This document shows, piece after piece, positions 6,701-34,010 of a stretch of 64,000 nt of DNA. The translations under genes were made by a program, and so were the position numbers. The stretch spans positions 186,001-250,000 of the forward strand of contig JAPWKG010000027.1 of the NCBI GenBank assembly GCA_028283625.1, read 5' to 3'. The notes beneath the pieces were generated by a model that saw only the letters and a program-made list of their open reading frames with translations, made no database searches and had not been told where the DNA came from. This DNA is from Acidobacteriaceae bacterium (GTDB lineage: Bacteria > Acidobacteriota > Terriglobia > Terriglobales > Acidobacteriaceae). Each line of letters starts with the position of its first letter. Position 1 is the stretch's first letter.

Positions 6701-9700
6701 CCTGCACGGGCGGTTATGACGCCAACAGCAATCTCCTATACAAGACTGACGCACGCGGAATAGTTTCGCACTTTTTGTACGACAATTTGAATCGTCTAAC
6801 CGCGAAAATCTATTCTGATGGAACTCCTAGTGTGGCTTTCGCTTACGACACCTCTTCCGTCCCAGGTGCAGCAAACACAATTGGGCGGGTTACACAAGAA
6901 ACCGTGAGCAATGGAGCTATTACACTCTCCCAACTGACACCGTATGCCTATGACGCCATGGGGCGCATCAAGCAGTTGATCGAATGTACCCCCGCCAACT
7001 GCCCGGCGCCAAACGCCCCATATCATCTTGCTTTAAGCTATGATTTGGCCGGCAACATAATCGAATCGACAAACGGTATCCCAGCCGCGGTTTTCACGGG
7101 AGATCCGGCTGATCCTAGCTCCAATTACGGAAATCCCTCGGCAACTTTCAATGGCATTCCAGTTCCAAGCGTTCTCCTGACCTCCGGTTATGACAGTGCG
7201 GGCAGACTGAGCCATTTAACGAGTTCCTGGGCGGACACAGGCAATCATCCTGGGACTCTATTCCAGGCCACCTCGATCGATGCTGCTGCACCAGCTTATG
7301 GTCCCGCGGGGCTGGAGAATGCGCAATTTGGCATCAACTCCGCGACTTCCACTGCGACGGTGAGCATGGCGCGAGCTTACGATAGCCGTCTTCGACTGGC
7401 TTCGGAGACCGATACTGGAACGGTGCCAGCAGCAATTTCAGCGACAGGTAGCTCAGGCTCCATCACCATTCTCGGCTCTGAGCAACCAATCACCGCGCCG
7501 GCAACACCAGGCACCGCAACGGTCACGATTAGCGGGACGGAAGGTTCCACGGGTTGCGGTGGGGGAGTCGTTGTGCAATCCGCGGAGAACGTGACACAGT
7601 CTTCTTCAGAAGCCCAGTCCCAACAAGCGGAATGCACCGTTACATACGACACCGGGAGTGTTTCGGTGACGGTCAATGGGTTTACGGCTGTGGCGCTATA
7701 TCGTCGTTACAGCACAAGCGTAACTGTGGCATCGGCGCTGGCGGCTGCACTCAATAGTTCTGGTTCTCCAGTGAGCGCCACTTCCTCGGGCAGTGTGGTT
7801 ACGATGACCAGTATCGCGACCGGCGAGGCCTCGAATTATGCATTCTCTATCTCTAACGGCGCCGATTTCTGGGGTTTAGCCTCCGGAGCCTCATTAGAGG
7901 GAGGAGGGGTAGGCGCAATTTCTGGTTATGATGCCGGCACGATCTCAGTTACGGTAAATGGAATTAATGTGTCGATCCCATGGGGTTCCAGTAGCACGCC
8001 GCAGTCTCTTGCAAGCGCGTTGGCCGCCAGCCTCCAGAGTGCCGGCAGCAGCATCTTTACCGCAACGGCTTCCGGGCAGGAAATAACGCTCCATAGCAAT
8101 GCAGTCGGGCTGACTACTAACTGGCCAATTTCTGTTGTTGTCAGCGACAGTTCTCCTACTGAGCCGGCCTCGTTTTCGGCGTCGGTGAGCGGCATGGCAG
8201 GAGGAGCGGACGGTATCGCGCAGTCTACTGTCCTTTATTCGTATACGATCCCGGCTACGGGTGGCTTTGCGCCGAACGGCAATTTGCTGAACGTGCAGGA
8301 TTCCGTGATGGGAAACTGGACGTATGGTTATGACGGCTTGAACCGGTTGATATCCGCATTTGCATACAGTGGAACCTACGTGGGAAGCAATATTGCCGGC
8401 GCGACGTTAGGCTGGAGTTATGATTCCTTCGGCAACCGGCTTTTGCAGAGCTCCAATTTCGCCGGATTTCCAACCGGCTCCGTGCAATTTGCAGGAGCGA
8501 ATAATCGGGCTGTCGGCATCGGGCTGGCGTCTGTGCCTGCCTCTTCCGTAGACACGATGCAGTATGACGCGGCTGGAAATCTTACGGGCAAGAACGGGAT
8601 AACGAGCTCACTCTATGACGCGGAAGGTAGGCTATGCGCCATTGCGAACGAGACTGGAGGGTTTACACAATACATTTACGACGGGAACGGAAATCGCGTG
8701 GCGAAGGGACCGATCAGCGTATTTAGCTGCAATGTTTCCAACAACGGGTTTAGCCCGATGGTAAGCTACGTGCTAGATACGGACGGCAAGCAACTGACCG
8801 AATTCAATCTGAGCTCGGGACAGTGGGGCTGGGCGCATAGCAATGTCTTTGCGAGTACGGGATTGGTGGCGACGTACTCCAATCCTGCATCGGGCTCTGA
8901 GACTACGTTCGCGCTGAATGACTGGTTGGGAACCAAGCGGGTCGAGGTGACGCCTGATGGGAAGGTCAGCAGCTTTGCCAGTCTTCCCTTCGGAGATGGA
9001 TTGACTTCATCAGGATCTGCATCCGATGCGACCGAGCACCACTTCACCGGCAAAGAAAGAGACGCGGAATCAGGACTCGACTACTTCGGGGCCAGGTACT
9101 ATGGCAGTTCGATGGGCCGCTTCATGAGCCCCGACTGGAGCAAGACTCCGGAGGGTGTTCCGTACGCCGATCTCAGCAATCCGCAGAGTCTGAATTTGTA
9201 CGGTTATGTGCTGAATAATCCGTTGAGCAAAACGGACGCAGATGGGCACTGGCCAGACTGTAGTGTCTGCCAAACCGTTATAAATTGGTTGTCTTCTAGC
9301 CACTCATCTAGTGCGTCTGCAAATGGATCGCTCGGACAAGGAAGCGCAAGCAATGGAAGCCTATCTGCATCAGCCAGAGCGGCGACCGGATCGGCTAGCG
9401 CTTCAGCGTCCTATGGTGCGAATACCAGCGTGGGCGCAAAGGTCAGCGGTTCTGTTGCCTCTGCGACCGTGAATGAAGGCACACACTCAACCACGCAGAT
9501 GGATGGTCTGACGGCAAACGCTGGCGCGAATGTTGGAGCTAGTGTGGGCGGTGGCAAAGGTGTCCAAGTCGGTGCCGGAGCTAGTGCAAACGCAGACGTT
9601 CTCTCAGCTTCACAAACGGAAAAGATCACCATCGGGCCCGTCACTATCACCGGCAGCGCTACGGGTGCCGTAGGCGTCGGAGCAAATGCTTCTGCATCGG

Positions 9701-28000: not shown

Positions 28001-28025
28001 GTTCTGATGTTTTGAGGAGTTGCAG

Positions 28026-29119
28026 ATGCAGGGAATTCACCCGCTCAGGAAATTGATGGATGAGCGTATCGCGATTATCGATGGCGCGATGGGGACAACG
28101 ATTCGCACGTATGGCATGACCGAGAAGGATATTCGCGGCGATCGCTGGGCTGATGCCGATAAGGACATGCTGAACAACGGCGACCTGTTCTCGATCACGC
28201 AGCCGAAGATGATCTGCGATATTCATCGGCGGTTTCTGGAGGCTGGTGCGGACATTATCGAGACGAATACCTTTGGTGCGACGAGCATCTCGCAGAGCGA
28301 GTTCTTTGTGGAAGACCCGCGTGAGCGTGGTGAGCGGAAGGATCCTGCGTTCTACCAGAGCGTGCTGGAGAACCCGATGCTGCGCGATCTTGCGTGGGAG
28401 ATCAACGAAACGAGCGCGCGGCAGTGCCGTGAGTGGGCGGACCGTGTGGCGAATGACACGGGTGTGCAGCGCTTCGTCGCAGGTGCGATTGGGCCGCTGA
28501 CGGTGAGCCTTTCGAACTCGCCGGATGCGGATGATCCGGGCTTCCGTGTGGTGACGTTTGATCAGGTGCTGGTGGCGTACAAGGAGCAGACGCGCGCGCT
28601 GATTGCGGGTGGTGTGGACACGCTGCTCGTGGAGACGATCTTCGACTCGCTGAATGCGAAGGCTGCGTTGGTGGCGATTCGCGAGGTGTTTGACGAGGAC
28701 GGGTTGGAGTTGCCGGTACAGATTTCTGCGGCTGTGGGTCGTGGTGGCGAGACGTTGATTTCGGCGCAAACGACGGAGGCTTTCTGGAATGCGGTCGCGC
28801 ATGTGAAGCCGCTGAGCGTGGGGTTGAACTGCTCGCTGGGGCCGGATTTGATGTTCCCATTTTTGACGGAGCTTTCGGGCAAGGCGAAGACGTCGGCGGT
28901 GAGTGCGTATCCGAATGCGGGTCTGCCGAATCCTTTGTCGGAGACGGGGTTTGATCTGGGGCCGGAGGATATGGGGCGCTTCCTTGGCGGCTTTGCGCAG
29001 GATGGGCTGATCAATATTGCCGGTGGATGCTGTGGCAATACGCCGGAGCATATTGCGGCGATTGCGAAGGCTGTGCGGGGTGTGGCTCCACGGAGTTTTG
29101 ATCGAGAGTTGGTGAAGGC

Positions 29120-29123
<4 letters not shown>
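28026..29123 (+). CDS. metH: Methionine synthase, homocysteine-binding module (split MetH part 1)
   Basis: A 365-residue protein from ATG 28026 with GAGGAG 6 bases upstream. It is only the N-terminal module of cobalamin-dependent methionine synthase: [32 protein letters not shown], and the zinc ligands GLNCSLGP and [10 protein letters not shown] that bind homocysteine thiolate. The other three modules are encoded by the next gene, whose GTG start overlaps this stop by four bases (GTGA). The two products must act together: this one delivers homocysteine, the other the methyl-cobalamin. Confidence 0.95.
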
Positions 29124-31807
<2,684 letters not shown>

Positions 31808-31907
31808 GGCTGGGGAGGAAGCCAGGAGGGTACGGCTTACGGGCCAGGGTGTTTGCACTCTAGTCAACGCTGGTGCTATAAATAATCCATTCACCCACGC
31901 AAGTGGG

Positions 31908-32022
31908 CGGATTTCATGCAGAGTGGCTGAGGGACGAGCCCTGAGACGCCACGACAACCGGACAGAACAAAGGCGTACCGGTGTCAACTCTCTCCTGGAA
32001 GGCGCAGGGAACATGAGATTCG
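31908..32022 (+). promoter_or_regulatory. SAM riboswitch (SAM-I/S-box type) ahead of thrC-like gene
   Basis: P1 pairs CGGATTTCATG (31908-31918) with CATGAGATTCG (32012-32022). P2 pairs GTGGC with GCCAC and encloses the kink-turn core CTGAGGGACGAGCCCTGAGA. ACAACCGG with ACCGG further on makes P3, and GGAAGGCGCAGGGAACATGA is the conserved P4/J region leading back into P1. This order is that of the SAM-I aptamer. It lies 127 bases before the start of the ThrC-like gene and should repress it when S-adenosylmethionine is abundant. Confidence 0.88.
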
Positions 32023-32149
32023 GTGGCAGCCTCTTTAGGTGACTGCATCCGCGTACTCAAAATTCCTGTGGGCTGAAACGCGGCGCCCTCTTCAAGAGAA
32101 AGTAAGTCTCAGCGACGTTCCCGGGCAAGATCTGCTGGGAGGACGTTTC

Positions 32150-33445
32150 ATGTCGGATTCGCAGTGTACCGTGTATGAGCTGAAGTGCCCGGAGTGCAAG
32201 AAGGGCTTTGGCAATGTTCCGTTGTCGGCTTGCCCTGATTGCCTGGCGCCGCTGGAGGTGCAGTATGACCTGGAGAGCGTGCGCGGCCGCTTTACGAAGG
32301 AGTCGGTTGCAGCCGGTCCGGCTAATATCTGGCGCTACAAGGAACTGCTTCCGATTCCGGAAGGATGCCAGCCCGACCTTCCTGTTGGCTTTACGCCGCT
32401 GGTGAAGGCGGAGCGTCTGGGCAAGCGTATCGGCGCGAAGAATCTTTATGTGAAGAACGACGCTGTTTGCTTTCCGACGCTGAGCTTTAAGGATCGCGTC
32501 GTTGCTGTTGCACTGGCCAATGCGCAACACTTCGGCTTTGATGTGGTGGGATGCTCCTCGACCGGTAATCTGGCAAACTCTGTGGCGGCACAGTCGGCTC
32601 GTCTGGGAATTCGCGCCTGCATTCTGGTGCCTGCAGATCTGGAGCCGGCAAAGATTCTGAATACGCTGGTCTATGGCGCGAAGCTTGTGCGCATCGACGG
32701 CAACTATGACCATGTGAACCGTCTCTGCACGCTGATTGCGGACGAGTACCGTTGGGGCTTTGTGAATGTGAACCTTCGCCCGTACTACGCGGAAGGCTCG
32801 AAGACGGTGGGCTATGAGATTGCGGAGCAGCTGGGATGGAAGCTGCCCGATAACGTGGTGTGCCCGATGGCGGGTGGGTCGCTGATCCGCAAGATCCGCA
32901 AGGCCTTTAACGAGCTGATCGCGCTGGGACTGGTGGAAGATAAGCCGGTGAAGTTCTTCGGTGCGCAGGCTACGGGTTGCTCGCCGATCTCGCACTCGGT
33001 CAAGAATGGCTGGGATGAGATTGAGCCGCAGCGTCCGAATACGATTGCCCGTTCCCTGGCGATCGGAAACCCGGCAGATGGTCCGGCGGCTTCAAAGATG
33101 ATTCAATCCACGGGCGGATGGGCTGAGGATGTGAGCGACGAGGAAGTTGTCGACGGCATGCAGCTGCTGGCGGAGTGCGAAGGCATCTTCACCGAGACGG
33201 CGGGCGGTGTAACGACCTCGGTGACTGAGAAGCTGTACCAGCAGGGCCGCATCAAGCCGGAAGAGCTTACGGTCTCGGTGATTACGGGCAACGGTCTGAA
33301 GACGACCGATGCGCTGGTGGGCCGGTTTGTGCAGGAGGCGGCGGTAAAGCCTCGCCTGGCAGAGTTTGACGCGTACCTCCGGGCATCGGATGCGTCGTTG
33401 ATCGGAGCGCCGCAGGATGCGGAGCTGGTTGGAGGAGTGAAGTGA
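32150..33445 (+). CDS. thrC: Threonine synthase-family PLP enzyme under SAM riboswitch control
   Basis: A 431-residue fold-type II PLP enzyme. ATG 32150 follows GGGAGG by 7 bases. A zinc-ribbon-like start (CPECKKGF, CPDC) precedes the catalytic domain; Lys114 in PTLSFKDR would bind PLP, and CSSTGNLANSVAA is the phosphate/substrate loop. That loop differs from the usual SSGNTS of threonine synthases. Threonine synthases convert O-phosphohomoserine to threonine. But the SAM riboswitch upstream and a CysO-like sulfur carrier overlapping its 3' end by four bases point towards sulfur amino-acid synthesis, for instance homocysteine from O-phosphohomoserine. Name given by family; the true reaction is open. 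Confidence 0.85.
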   Translation: MSDSQCTVYELKCPECKKGFGNVPLSACPDCLAPLEVQYDLESVRGRFTKESVAAGPANIWRYKELLPIPEGCQPDLPVGFTPLVKAERLGKRIGAKNLYVKNDAVCFPTLSFKDRVVAVALANAQHFGFDVVGCSSTGNLANSVAAQSARLGIRACILVPADLEPAKILNTLVYGAKLVRIDGNYDHVNRLCTLIADEYRWGFVNVNLRPYYAEGSKTVGYEIAEQLGWKLPDNVVCPMAGGSLIRKIRKAFNELIALGLVEDKPVKFFGAQATGCSPISHSVKNGWDEIEPQRPNTIARSLAIGNPADGPAASKMIQSTGGWAEDVSDEEVVDGMQLLAECEGIFTETAGGVTTSVTEKLYQQGRIKPEELTVSVITGNGLKTTDALVGRFVQEAAVKPRLAEFDAYLRASDASLIGAPQDAELVGGVK

Positions 33446-33723
33446 GCATCAAGGTAGTGTTGCCGACGGCATTGGCCCGTCATACGGATGGACAGAAGAC
33501 CTTTACCTCAGAAGCAAAGAATCTTGCAGGTCTGATCGCGGAGTTCGACAGCAAGTTTCCGGCGCTGGCGGAGAATGTGAAGGACGACTCTGGCAAGCTG
33601 CGCAAGTTCATCAACGTGTATGTGAACGATGAGGACATTCGCTTTCTCGGCGGCGATACGCACGAGTTTGAAGACGGCGATGAGATTATGCTGATTCCTT
33701 CGATTGCTGGCGGCTGTTGCTAA
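33442..33723 (+). CDS. CysO/MoaD/ThiS-like sulfur-carrier protein with GGCC tail
   Basis: A 93-residue ubiquitin-fold protein. The segments HTDGQKTFTSEAKNLAGLI, FINVYVNDEDIRFLGG and DGDEIMLIPSIAGG closely follow mycobacterial CysO, whose C-terminal Gly-Gly is thiocarboxylated and donates sulfur to a PLP enzyme. Here the Gly-Gly is followed by Cys-Cys, so processing or direct cysteine chemistry would be needed. It starts with GTG inside the stop of the ThrC-like gene (GTGA overlap), so the two are made together and the riboswitch covers both. Confidence 0.88.
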   Translation: MSIKVVLPTALARHTDGQKTFTSEAKNLAGLIAEFDSKFPALAENVKDDSGKLRKFINVYVNDEDIRFLGGDTHEFEDGDEIMLIPSIAGGCC

Positions 33724-33743
33724 GGTTCGCAGTAGAAAACAAG

Positions 33744-33776
33744 AAGGCGGTGGGCCATGGGGCCTGCCGCCTTTTC
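33744..33776 (+). terminator. Intrinsic terminator after the ThrC/CysO-like pair
   Basis: AAGGCGG (33744-33750) pairs with CCGCCTT (33767-33773), with further pairing inside, followed by TTTCT. The rest of 33777-34010 shows no gene. Confidence 0.75.
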
Positions 33777-34010
33777 TCTTTGTGCAAGAAGTACCGTGTG
33801 TTTGAGCTGGCAGGAATGAGAAGGGAGAGATGAGGTCGGTGGCGTCGGTGAATGGGTTGGCATCGTGGCCATGGATGGATTTCGGGGCCGAAGTTAGTTT
33901 TTCGAGGGAAGGAGACACACTTTCCTGAGCTCAGGCATAAGGCGCGCAGGGGCTTGTGCGCGTGACGGAAACGGTATTTTTGCGGAGGAAGCACGATCGT
34001 CCGTTCCGGA

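Follow-up and report, generated by a model that had tools for sequence, protein, structure and literature searches.

The window analysed here, a stretch of 64,000 nucleotides from an Acidobacteriaceae bacterium (assembly GCA_028283625.1, positions 186,001 to 250,000 of JAPWKG010000027.1), is part of contig 5 of a 3.0-Mb host genome that comprises 31 contigs and is 84.8% complete. It carries a riboswitch of the S-adenosylmethionine (SAM)-I type, followed by metM, encoding a pyridoxal 5'-phosphate (PLP) enzyme of the threonine synthase (ThrC) family, and metO, encoding a sulfur carrier similar to CysO (Table 1). Judging from these genes and their distribution, the acidobacterial metM-metO operon very probably encodes a carrier-dependent homocysteine synthase under SAM control.

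Table 1. Features of the metM-metO locus and its surroundings (positions in the window)
Feature	Positions	Strand	Evidence
SAM-I (S-box) riboswitch aptamer	31911..32019	+	RF00162 67.7 bits, cut-off 44.4; two-sided changes in related leaders
Putative hairpin pairing the Shine-Dalgarno (SD) sequence, candidate expression platform	32112..32149	+	Fold of the 48 bases up to and including the start codon
metM, ThrC-family PLP enzyme	32150..33445	+	TIGR00260 and PALP; clade; 18 clade-specific columns; predicted structure
metO, CysO-like sulfur carrier, C-terminus SIAGGCC	33442..33723	+	Pfam ThiS 46.2 bits; CysO 3dwg
Intrinsic terminator 3' of metO	33742..33775	+	15-pair stem, then T-rich tail
metH N-terminal part, homocysteine-binding domain, separate open reading frame (ORF)	28020..29123	+	Pfam S-methyl_trans
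metH C-terminal part: pterin-binding, B12-binding and activation domains	29120..31807	+	TIGR02082; four Pfam domains

The SAM-I aptamer that the initial annotation had placed before the ThrC-family gene is a full-length match to RF00162 (model positions 1-108 of 108, E 1.2e-13); no other SAM match turned up in the 3.0-Mb host genome. Across 16 related leaders, 98.8% of the pair cells hold standard pairs, and 11 of the 26 pairs show two-sided changes. Terminator-like hairpins lie 3' of the aptamer in 20 of 42 leaders (shuffles give about 2, or 4.8%), but in just one of the 13 leaders closest to that of the window, and the same scan found no intrinsic terminator in the window leader itself. This distribution points to attenuation in the majority of lineages, with a different mode of control, perhaps translational, in the lineage of the window. 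The folds of the window leader are no more stable than those of shuffled sequences (z -0.63 and -0.49). Its SD hairpin is not significant in the shuffle control, the SD sequence being paired in 47% of the shuffles too. The probability that the SD is unpaired falls below the shuffle mean in nine of 10 close leaders (L078 shows the opposite), and the shuffle fraction is below 0.05 in none of the 10 (lowest 0.07). Pairing is possible between the aptamer's 3' end and the 5' arm of the SD hairpin (-15.1 kcal/mol, a value with no control run). As the hairpin does not beat shuffles, translational control through it stays a guess.

MetM most likely starts at ATG 32150, preceded by GGGAGG, within a longest ORF that begins at GTG 32039; its only Pfam match is PALP. 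The predicted structure (mean predicted local distance difference test score 85.3) is closest to threonine synthases (2zsj, template-modelling score 0.87 by target length), so the fold does not separate MetM from threonine synthase; the sequence does. In a tree of 80 proteins, of the kind that the initial annotation had called for, MetM falls within a clade of 57 rows (support 100/100, branch 0.96), and both ThrC paralogues of the host, on contigs 11 and 22, fall outside it. The CSSTGNLANS loop, flagged early on as unusual, proves diagnostic: its Leu141 is present in 57/57 clade rows and 0/22 ThrC rows. Eighteen columns reach a conservation of 95% or higher in the 48 rows of group A (the MetM clade minus its sister group B, genes without a carrier included) and no more than 10% in the 22 ThrC rows; the long-branch row L032_125 is omitted from this comparison and from the Leu141 count. 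Other clade-specific columns include Asn190, Arg210, Tyr213, Ala241, Asp310, Gly311 and Thr385, and in alignments the solved threonine synthases carry other letters at the clade-specific positions. With threonine synthases (TIGR00260; 2zsj, 1uim, 2d1f) MetM thus shares the fold, the PLP lysine motif SFKDR and, as proposed, a phosphate-bearing substrate, but it differs in its motifs SFKDRV, STGNL, NLRPYYAEGSK, AGGSL, NPADG and GLKT and in its separate clade.

MetO is a protein of 93 residues with the ThiS (beta-grasp) fold, and its best solved relative is Mycobacterium tuberculosis CysO (3dwg, E 3e-20). As described in the initial annotation, the stop of the ThrC-like gene overlaps the start of the carrier gene (GTG 33442 and TGA 33443-33445). 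CysO-type carriers have a gene-encoded Gly-Gly end; MetO ends SIAGGCC, and it can act as a carrier only if the two residues after Gly-Gly are removed.

A scan of a genome collection returned at least 584 relatives, of which the best 80 were kept as named loci. Close named relatives among these 80 belong to Edaphobacter, Granulicella and other Acidobacteriaceae. A carrier gene adjoins metM in 73 of the 80 (38/40 cyanobacterial, 20/24 acidobacterial and 15/16 other loci), and a SAM riboswitch was found in 18/24 acidobacterial, 0/40 cyanobacterial and 5/16 other loci. Residues follow the last Gly-Gly in 18/20 acidobacterial, 0/38 cyanobacterial and 11/15 other carriers of the same set. They also do so in 8/15 carriers of a phylum sample of 119 genomes (the host plus genomes at least 90% complete), and in the host's congener the carrier tail is about 20 residues long. 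In relatives, partner genes stand with metM itself. At L054 one SAM riboswitch is followed by genes for an E1 enzyme, a class V aminotransferase (cysteine-desulfurase-like), MetM and MetO, and at L060 genes for a JAMM protein and for a carrier-E1-rhodanese fusion (7859-9319; carrier, ThiF and rhodanese domains in one protein) stand beside metM-metO. In Nonomuraea gerenzanensis the SAM-I riboswitch, MetM and a carrier ending in Gly-Gly are encoded in a row; its MetM homologue falls inside the 57-row clade on a long branch, and the Microcystis novacekii homologue lies in the same clade. Group B (nine rows, L029-L037) forms a starred sister branch without an adjoining carrier. Three of its nine rows (L031, L033 and L034) have a SAM riboswitch.

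The initial annotation had proposed a possible new homocysteine route. MetM-type synthesis is, however, already known. A later account (PMC12172450) credits Hasebe et al. (2024, Appl Environ Microbiol 90:e01247-24) with finding the Streptomyces homocysteine synthase MetM, which resembles ThrC and in S. albulus is encoded downstream of a SAM riboswitch; the account also describes homologues in cyanobacteria. The whole arrangement of ThrC-like enzyme, SAM riboswitch and downstream carrier matches that of the window. The differences are that the window belongs to the Acidobacteriota, that its gene adjoins a split metH, that its activity is deduced here from sequence and, perhaps, that its carrier has residues beyond Gly-Gly. 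S. albulus MetM lies outside the sequence set of the tree, where the Nonomuraea protein stands in for it. The novel elements are an acidobacterial member, the swap statistics given below, the carriers with residues beyond Gly-Gly and the carrier-less sister group. The literature search made here found no paper on acidobacterial SAM riboswitches in connection with methionine. The mycobacterial CysM-CysO-JAMM relay has the same carrier fold and the same E1-rhodanese and JAMM partners, but its PLP partner is a cysteine synthase, whereas that of the window is a ThrC homologue under SAM control. In the Wolinella-type pathway, the sulfur of homocysteine likewise comes from a carrier thiocarboxylate. 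The acceptor enzyme there is O-acetylhomoserine sulfhydrylase, which has another PLP fold and belongs to the PLP family of Cys/Met metabolism; the window enzyme, by contrast, matches PALP only. An HcyS-type pathway was rejected for the same locus, as the enzyme fold (PALP) is the wrong one.

A search of the whole host genome, suggested in the initial annotation, recovered a second thrC on contig 11 (TIGR00260, 291.4 bits) that overlaps the homoserine kinase gene thrB (TIGR00191, 238.7 bits, cut-off 168.25), as well as a third ThrC-like gene on contig 22; neither of these two loci has a SAM match. In the same genome, 84.8% complete, there is no match to TIGR01392 (metX), PF04204 (metA) or DUF39, and the DUF39 pathway was rejected as a candidate on that ground; a congener that is 99% complete agrees, in that metX, metA and the DUF39 pathway were not detected. 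The earlier statement that metA, metX, metY and metB are missing from the window therefore extends to the genome for metX and metA, but not for metB, as genes like metB and metC exist: contig 5 holds two full-length Cys_Met_Meta_PP (PF01053) genes (454.3 and 451.0 bits). They lie in tandem and overlap (L046, 8068-10370), and are closest to the cystathionine beta-lyase and gamma-synthase models, under the curated cut-offs. On contig 19 genes for a CysM-like enzyme (TIGR01138, 336.8 bits, under the cut-off of 394.2), a JAMM protein (PF14464, 89.1 bits), a second tailed carrier and a ThiF-rhodanese of the MoeZ/MoeB type follow in a row, with a homoserine dehydrogenase gene about 2.6 kb beyond. 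The row lies at L159, 2744-5970, and its second carrier ends GGCCSLPAAGCCRS. An operon of this type is listed for an acidobacterium in row 4c of Table 1 of Iyer et al. (2006; PMC1779556), and the cluster is probably the cysteine branch of the same sulfur relay.

Of the 119 genomes in the phylum sample, 32 have metM (31 with scores of at least 420 bits, and G099 with a fragment of 304.6 bits; the next match is 36% identical). Under a strict count, in which MetX needs at least 270 bits (two fragments are also accepted) and MetA is read from PF04204, MetX or MetA is found in 2 of the 32 genomes with metM and in 36 of the 87 without it (Fisher p 1.4e-4). Adding MetX hits of 139-175 bits gives 3/32 against 43/87 (p 4e-5), the third of the 32 being G091, whose hit belongs to a different esterase family. 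Leaving out group B, to which G069, absent from the tree, was assigned by identity and in which G111 also has MetX, gives 0/22 against 36/87 (p 6.5e-5). DUF39 occurs in four of the 119 genomes, none of them with metM. As 51 of the 87 genomes without metM have no acyltransferase by the strict count either (47 once DUF39 is counted), this census of routes is incomplete. Of the genomes in the window's family, 10 carry metM and lack any MetX hit of at least 270 bits; in the three that lack metM, MetX stands next to a Cys_Met_Meta_PP gene, which by position is MetY. A MetX-like hit of 139.5 bits in G091 was examined because a true MetX there would break the family pattern; it was rejected, scoring 336.4 bits with NF005757 (cut-off 332) and 142.6 with MetX.

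The riboswitch often follows this exchange. The phylum search, run under strict filters with 29 candidates scored per genome, gave 60 SAM sites in 46 of the 119 genomes, and because of these settings its absences are soft. Where metM is present, SAM sites were found in 18 of the 32 genomes, 18 sites in total, and each of them precedes metM on the same strand by 107-2379 nt. In 28 genomes without metM there are 42 sites: 14 of these genomes have one each that precedes an acyltransferase hit by no more than 3 kb, and the remaining 28 sites lie elsewhere. These 14 acyltransferase sites comprise six MetA, six MetX hits of 155-175 bits, G016 and G114; the count is wider than the strict MetX census, including as it does the MetX hits of 155-175 bits, a 63-bit fragment at a contig end (G016) and a SAM match below the cut-off (G114). 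The MetX proteins of G001 and G014 score above the cut-off of the succinyltransferase MetX model, and in G077 and G086 a MetY gene (about 640 bits, cut-off 495.1) stands in front of the MetX hit. As SAM sites precede metM or, in some genomes that lack it, acyltransferase hits, the riboswitch often goes with the homocysteine step, no matter which enzyme carries it out.

In the mechanism proposed here, a JAMM peptidase would trim MetO after Gly-Gly and a MoeZ-like E1-rhodanese would adenylate and sulfurate it to the thiocarboxylate; both may be the proteins encoded with the cysM-cysO pair elsewhere in the genome. On the PLP of MetM, phosphate would be released from O-phosphohomoserine and carrier-bound sulfur would attack, giving homocysteine, which the split MetH encoded directly upstream would methylate. 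Plentiful SAM would bind the riboswitch and shut the operon down. In the Streptomyces system, MetO is reportedly a thiocarboxylated carrier encoded downstream of MetM, and O-phosphohomoserine is said to be the substrate. The conversion of O-phosphohomoserine and carrier-bound sulfur into homocysteine had been put forward in the initial annotation and is supported, indirectly, by the second thrC-thrB pair and by the failure to detect metX, metA and DUF39. Since that thrC is coupled to thrB and no metX, metA or DUF39 match was detected, the host does not show the combination that had been named as telling against the proposal, namely a complete classical pathway in a genome lacking any further threonine synthase.

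Several observations weigh against a carrier-dependent homocysteine synthase at this locus. MetM scores above the threonine synthase cut-off (TIGR00260, 277.8 bits against 167.1). The host genome is incomplete, and its tandem cystathionine-type pair is unexplained. In the phylum sample a carrier adjoins metM in just 15 of 30 loci, 14 of the 32 genomes with metM have no SAM match under the strict filters, and the Fisher tests ignore the relatedness of the genomes. Finally, the ThrC of Microcystis aeruginosa, a 51.6% match to S. albulus MetM, is reported to have threonine synthase and threonine deaminase activity and, in the account given there, does not seem fully MetM-like in cells (PMC12172450), which counts against one function for every member of the clade.

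The strongest rival is that MetM is a bifunctional or plain threonine synthase grouped with methionine genes by chance, its carrier serving another enzyme. The fold and the TIGR00260 score are those of a threonine synthase, the Microcystis homologue is reported to have the activity, and in one group-B member of the clade (L064) the gene overlaps that of a homoserine-kinase-type GHMP kinase. Yet the host has a separate thrC that overlaps thrB, the riboswitch replaces that of metX/metA loci, a carrier adjoins the gene in most of the best 80 loci, and the 18 columns set the clade apart; we regard this explanation as unlikely, and its plain form was rejected on the separate clade and the second thrC. 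Less probable still, the contig-5 pair resembling cystathionine gamma-synthase and beta-lyase might make homocysteine from O-phosphohomoserine or an unrecognised acyl-homoserine, metM-metO then acting elsewhere in sulfur metabolism. Both PF01053 genes are full length, and at least one such gene is present in each of the 10 family members with MetM. Such genes do not track MetM, however, because they are also present in genomes without it; in addition, the L046 locus has no SAM riboswitch, and no acyl donor, metX or metA was detected in the genome. That the pair makes another sulfur amino acid such as cysteine, in the manner of CysM-CysO, the nearest solved relative of its carrier, is very improbable, given the separate CysM-like enzyme with JAMM, second carrier and E1 on contig 19, and given that both the SAM control and the swap with MetX/MetA speak for the homocysteine step.

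Trimming of MetO is likely, because JAB peptidases are predicted to free such tailed carriers (Iyer et al., 2006; PMC1779556). The phylum-wide JAMM search does not discriminate, as family genomes with and without MetM all have JAMM. At one locus (L142, 6257-6772), beside MetM and a SAM riboswitch, a NIL domain (51.5 bits) is joined to the C-terminus of the carrier in a fusion protein, and the carriers of L148 and L150 have similar tails; a methionine-sensing or blocking role of this tail is possible. The acidobacterial carriers may be inactive pro-carriers, whose GGCC, ~20-residue or NIL tails would block thiocarboxylation until JAMM cuts, with a single maturation and activation hub feeding both cysteine and homocysteine, an idea for and against which the balance seems about even. 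Here the methionine-linked NIL tail is that of the three loci just named, and the JAMM would be the one whose gene accompanies those of E1 and the second tailed carrier in the cysM cluster. If true, it would place a post-translational gate on top of the SAM riboswitch.

Annotation pipelines label metM a threonine synthase, its TIGR00260 score being above the cut-off, and methionine synthesis therefore looks incomplete in many acidobacterial genomes despite the presence of a route. The exchange of MetM with MetX/MetA, the riboswitch following, adds functional support within the phylum beyond the published Streptomyces work, and methionine prototrophy could be predicted from it by a simple rule. 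The findings that most deserve follow-up, both open to testing, are the tails of the possible pro-carriers and the carrier-less sister group under SAM control. A further MetM-like gene (L061, 6446-10428) lies behind a SAM riboswitch and before genes for a semialdehyde dehydrogenase and an amino acid (aspartate-type) kinase; no carrier was found near it.

Around the pair itself, a scan of positions 31700-33900 found no consensus promoter, and the terminator 3' of metO folds at -27.9 kcal/mol (z -3.94). The split MetH noted early on consists of two ORFs that overlap by 4 bases upstream of the riboswitch, the break falling between the homocysteine-binding part and the rest. The N-terminal ORF matches S-methyl_trans at 28044-29123 (257.7 bits) and the NCBIfam metH models only to about position 320-340, and the C-terminal ORF covers positions 325-1182 of TIGR02082 (1188.3 bits, cut-off 1010.85). 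In the congener (L050) metH is likewise divided into two ORFs, and the N-terminal parts are 86% identical.

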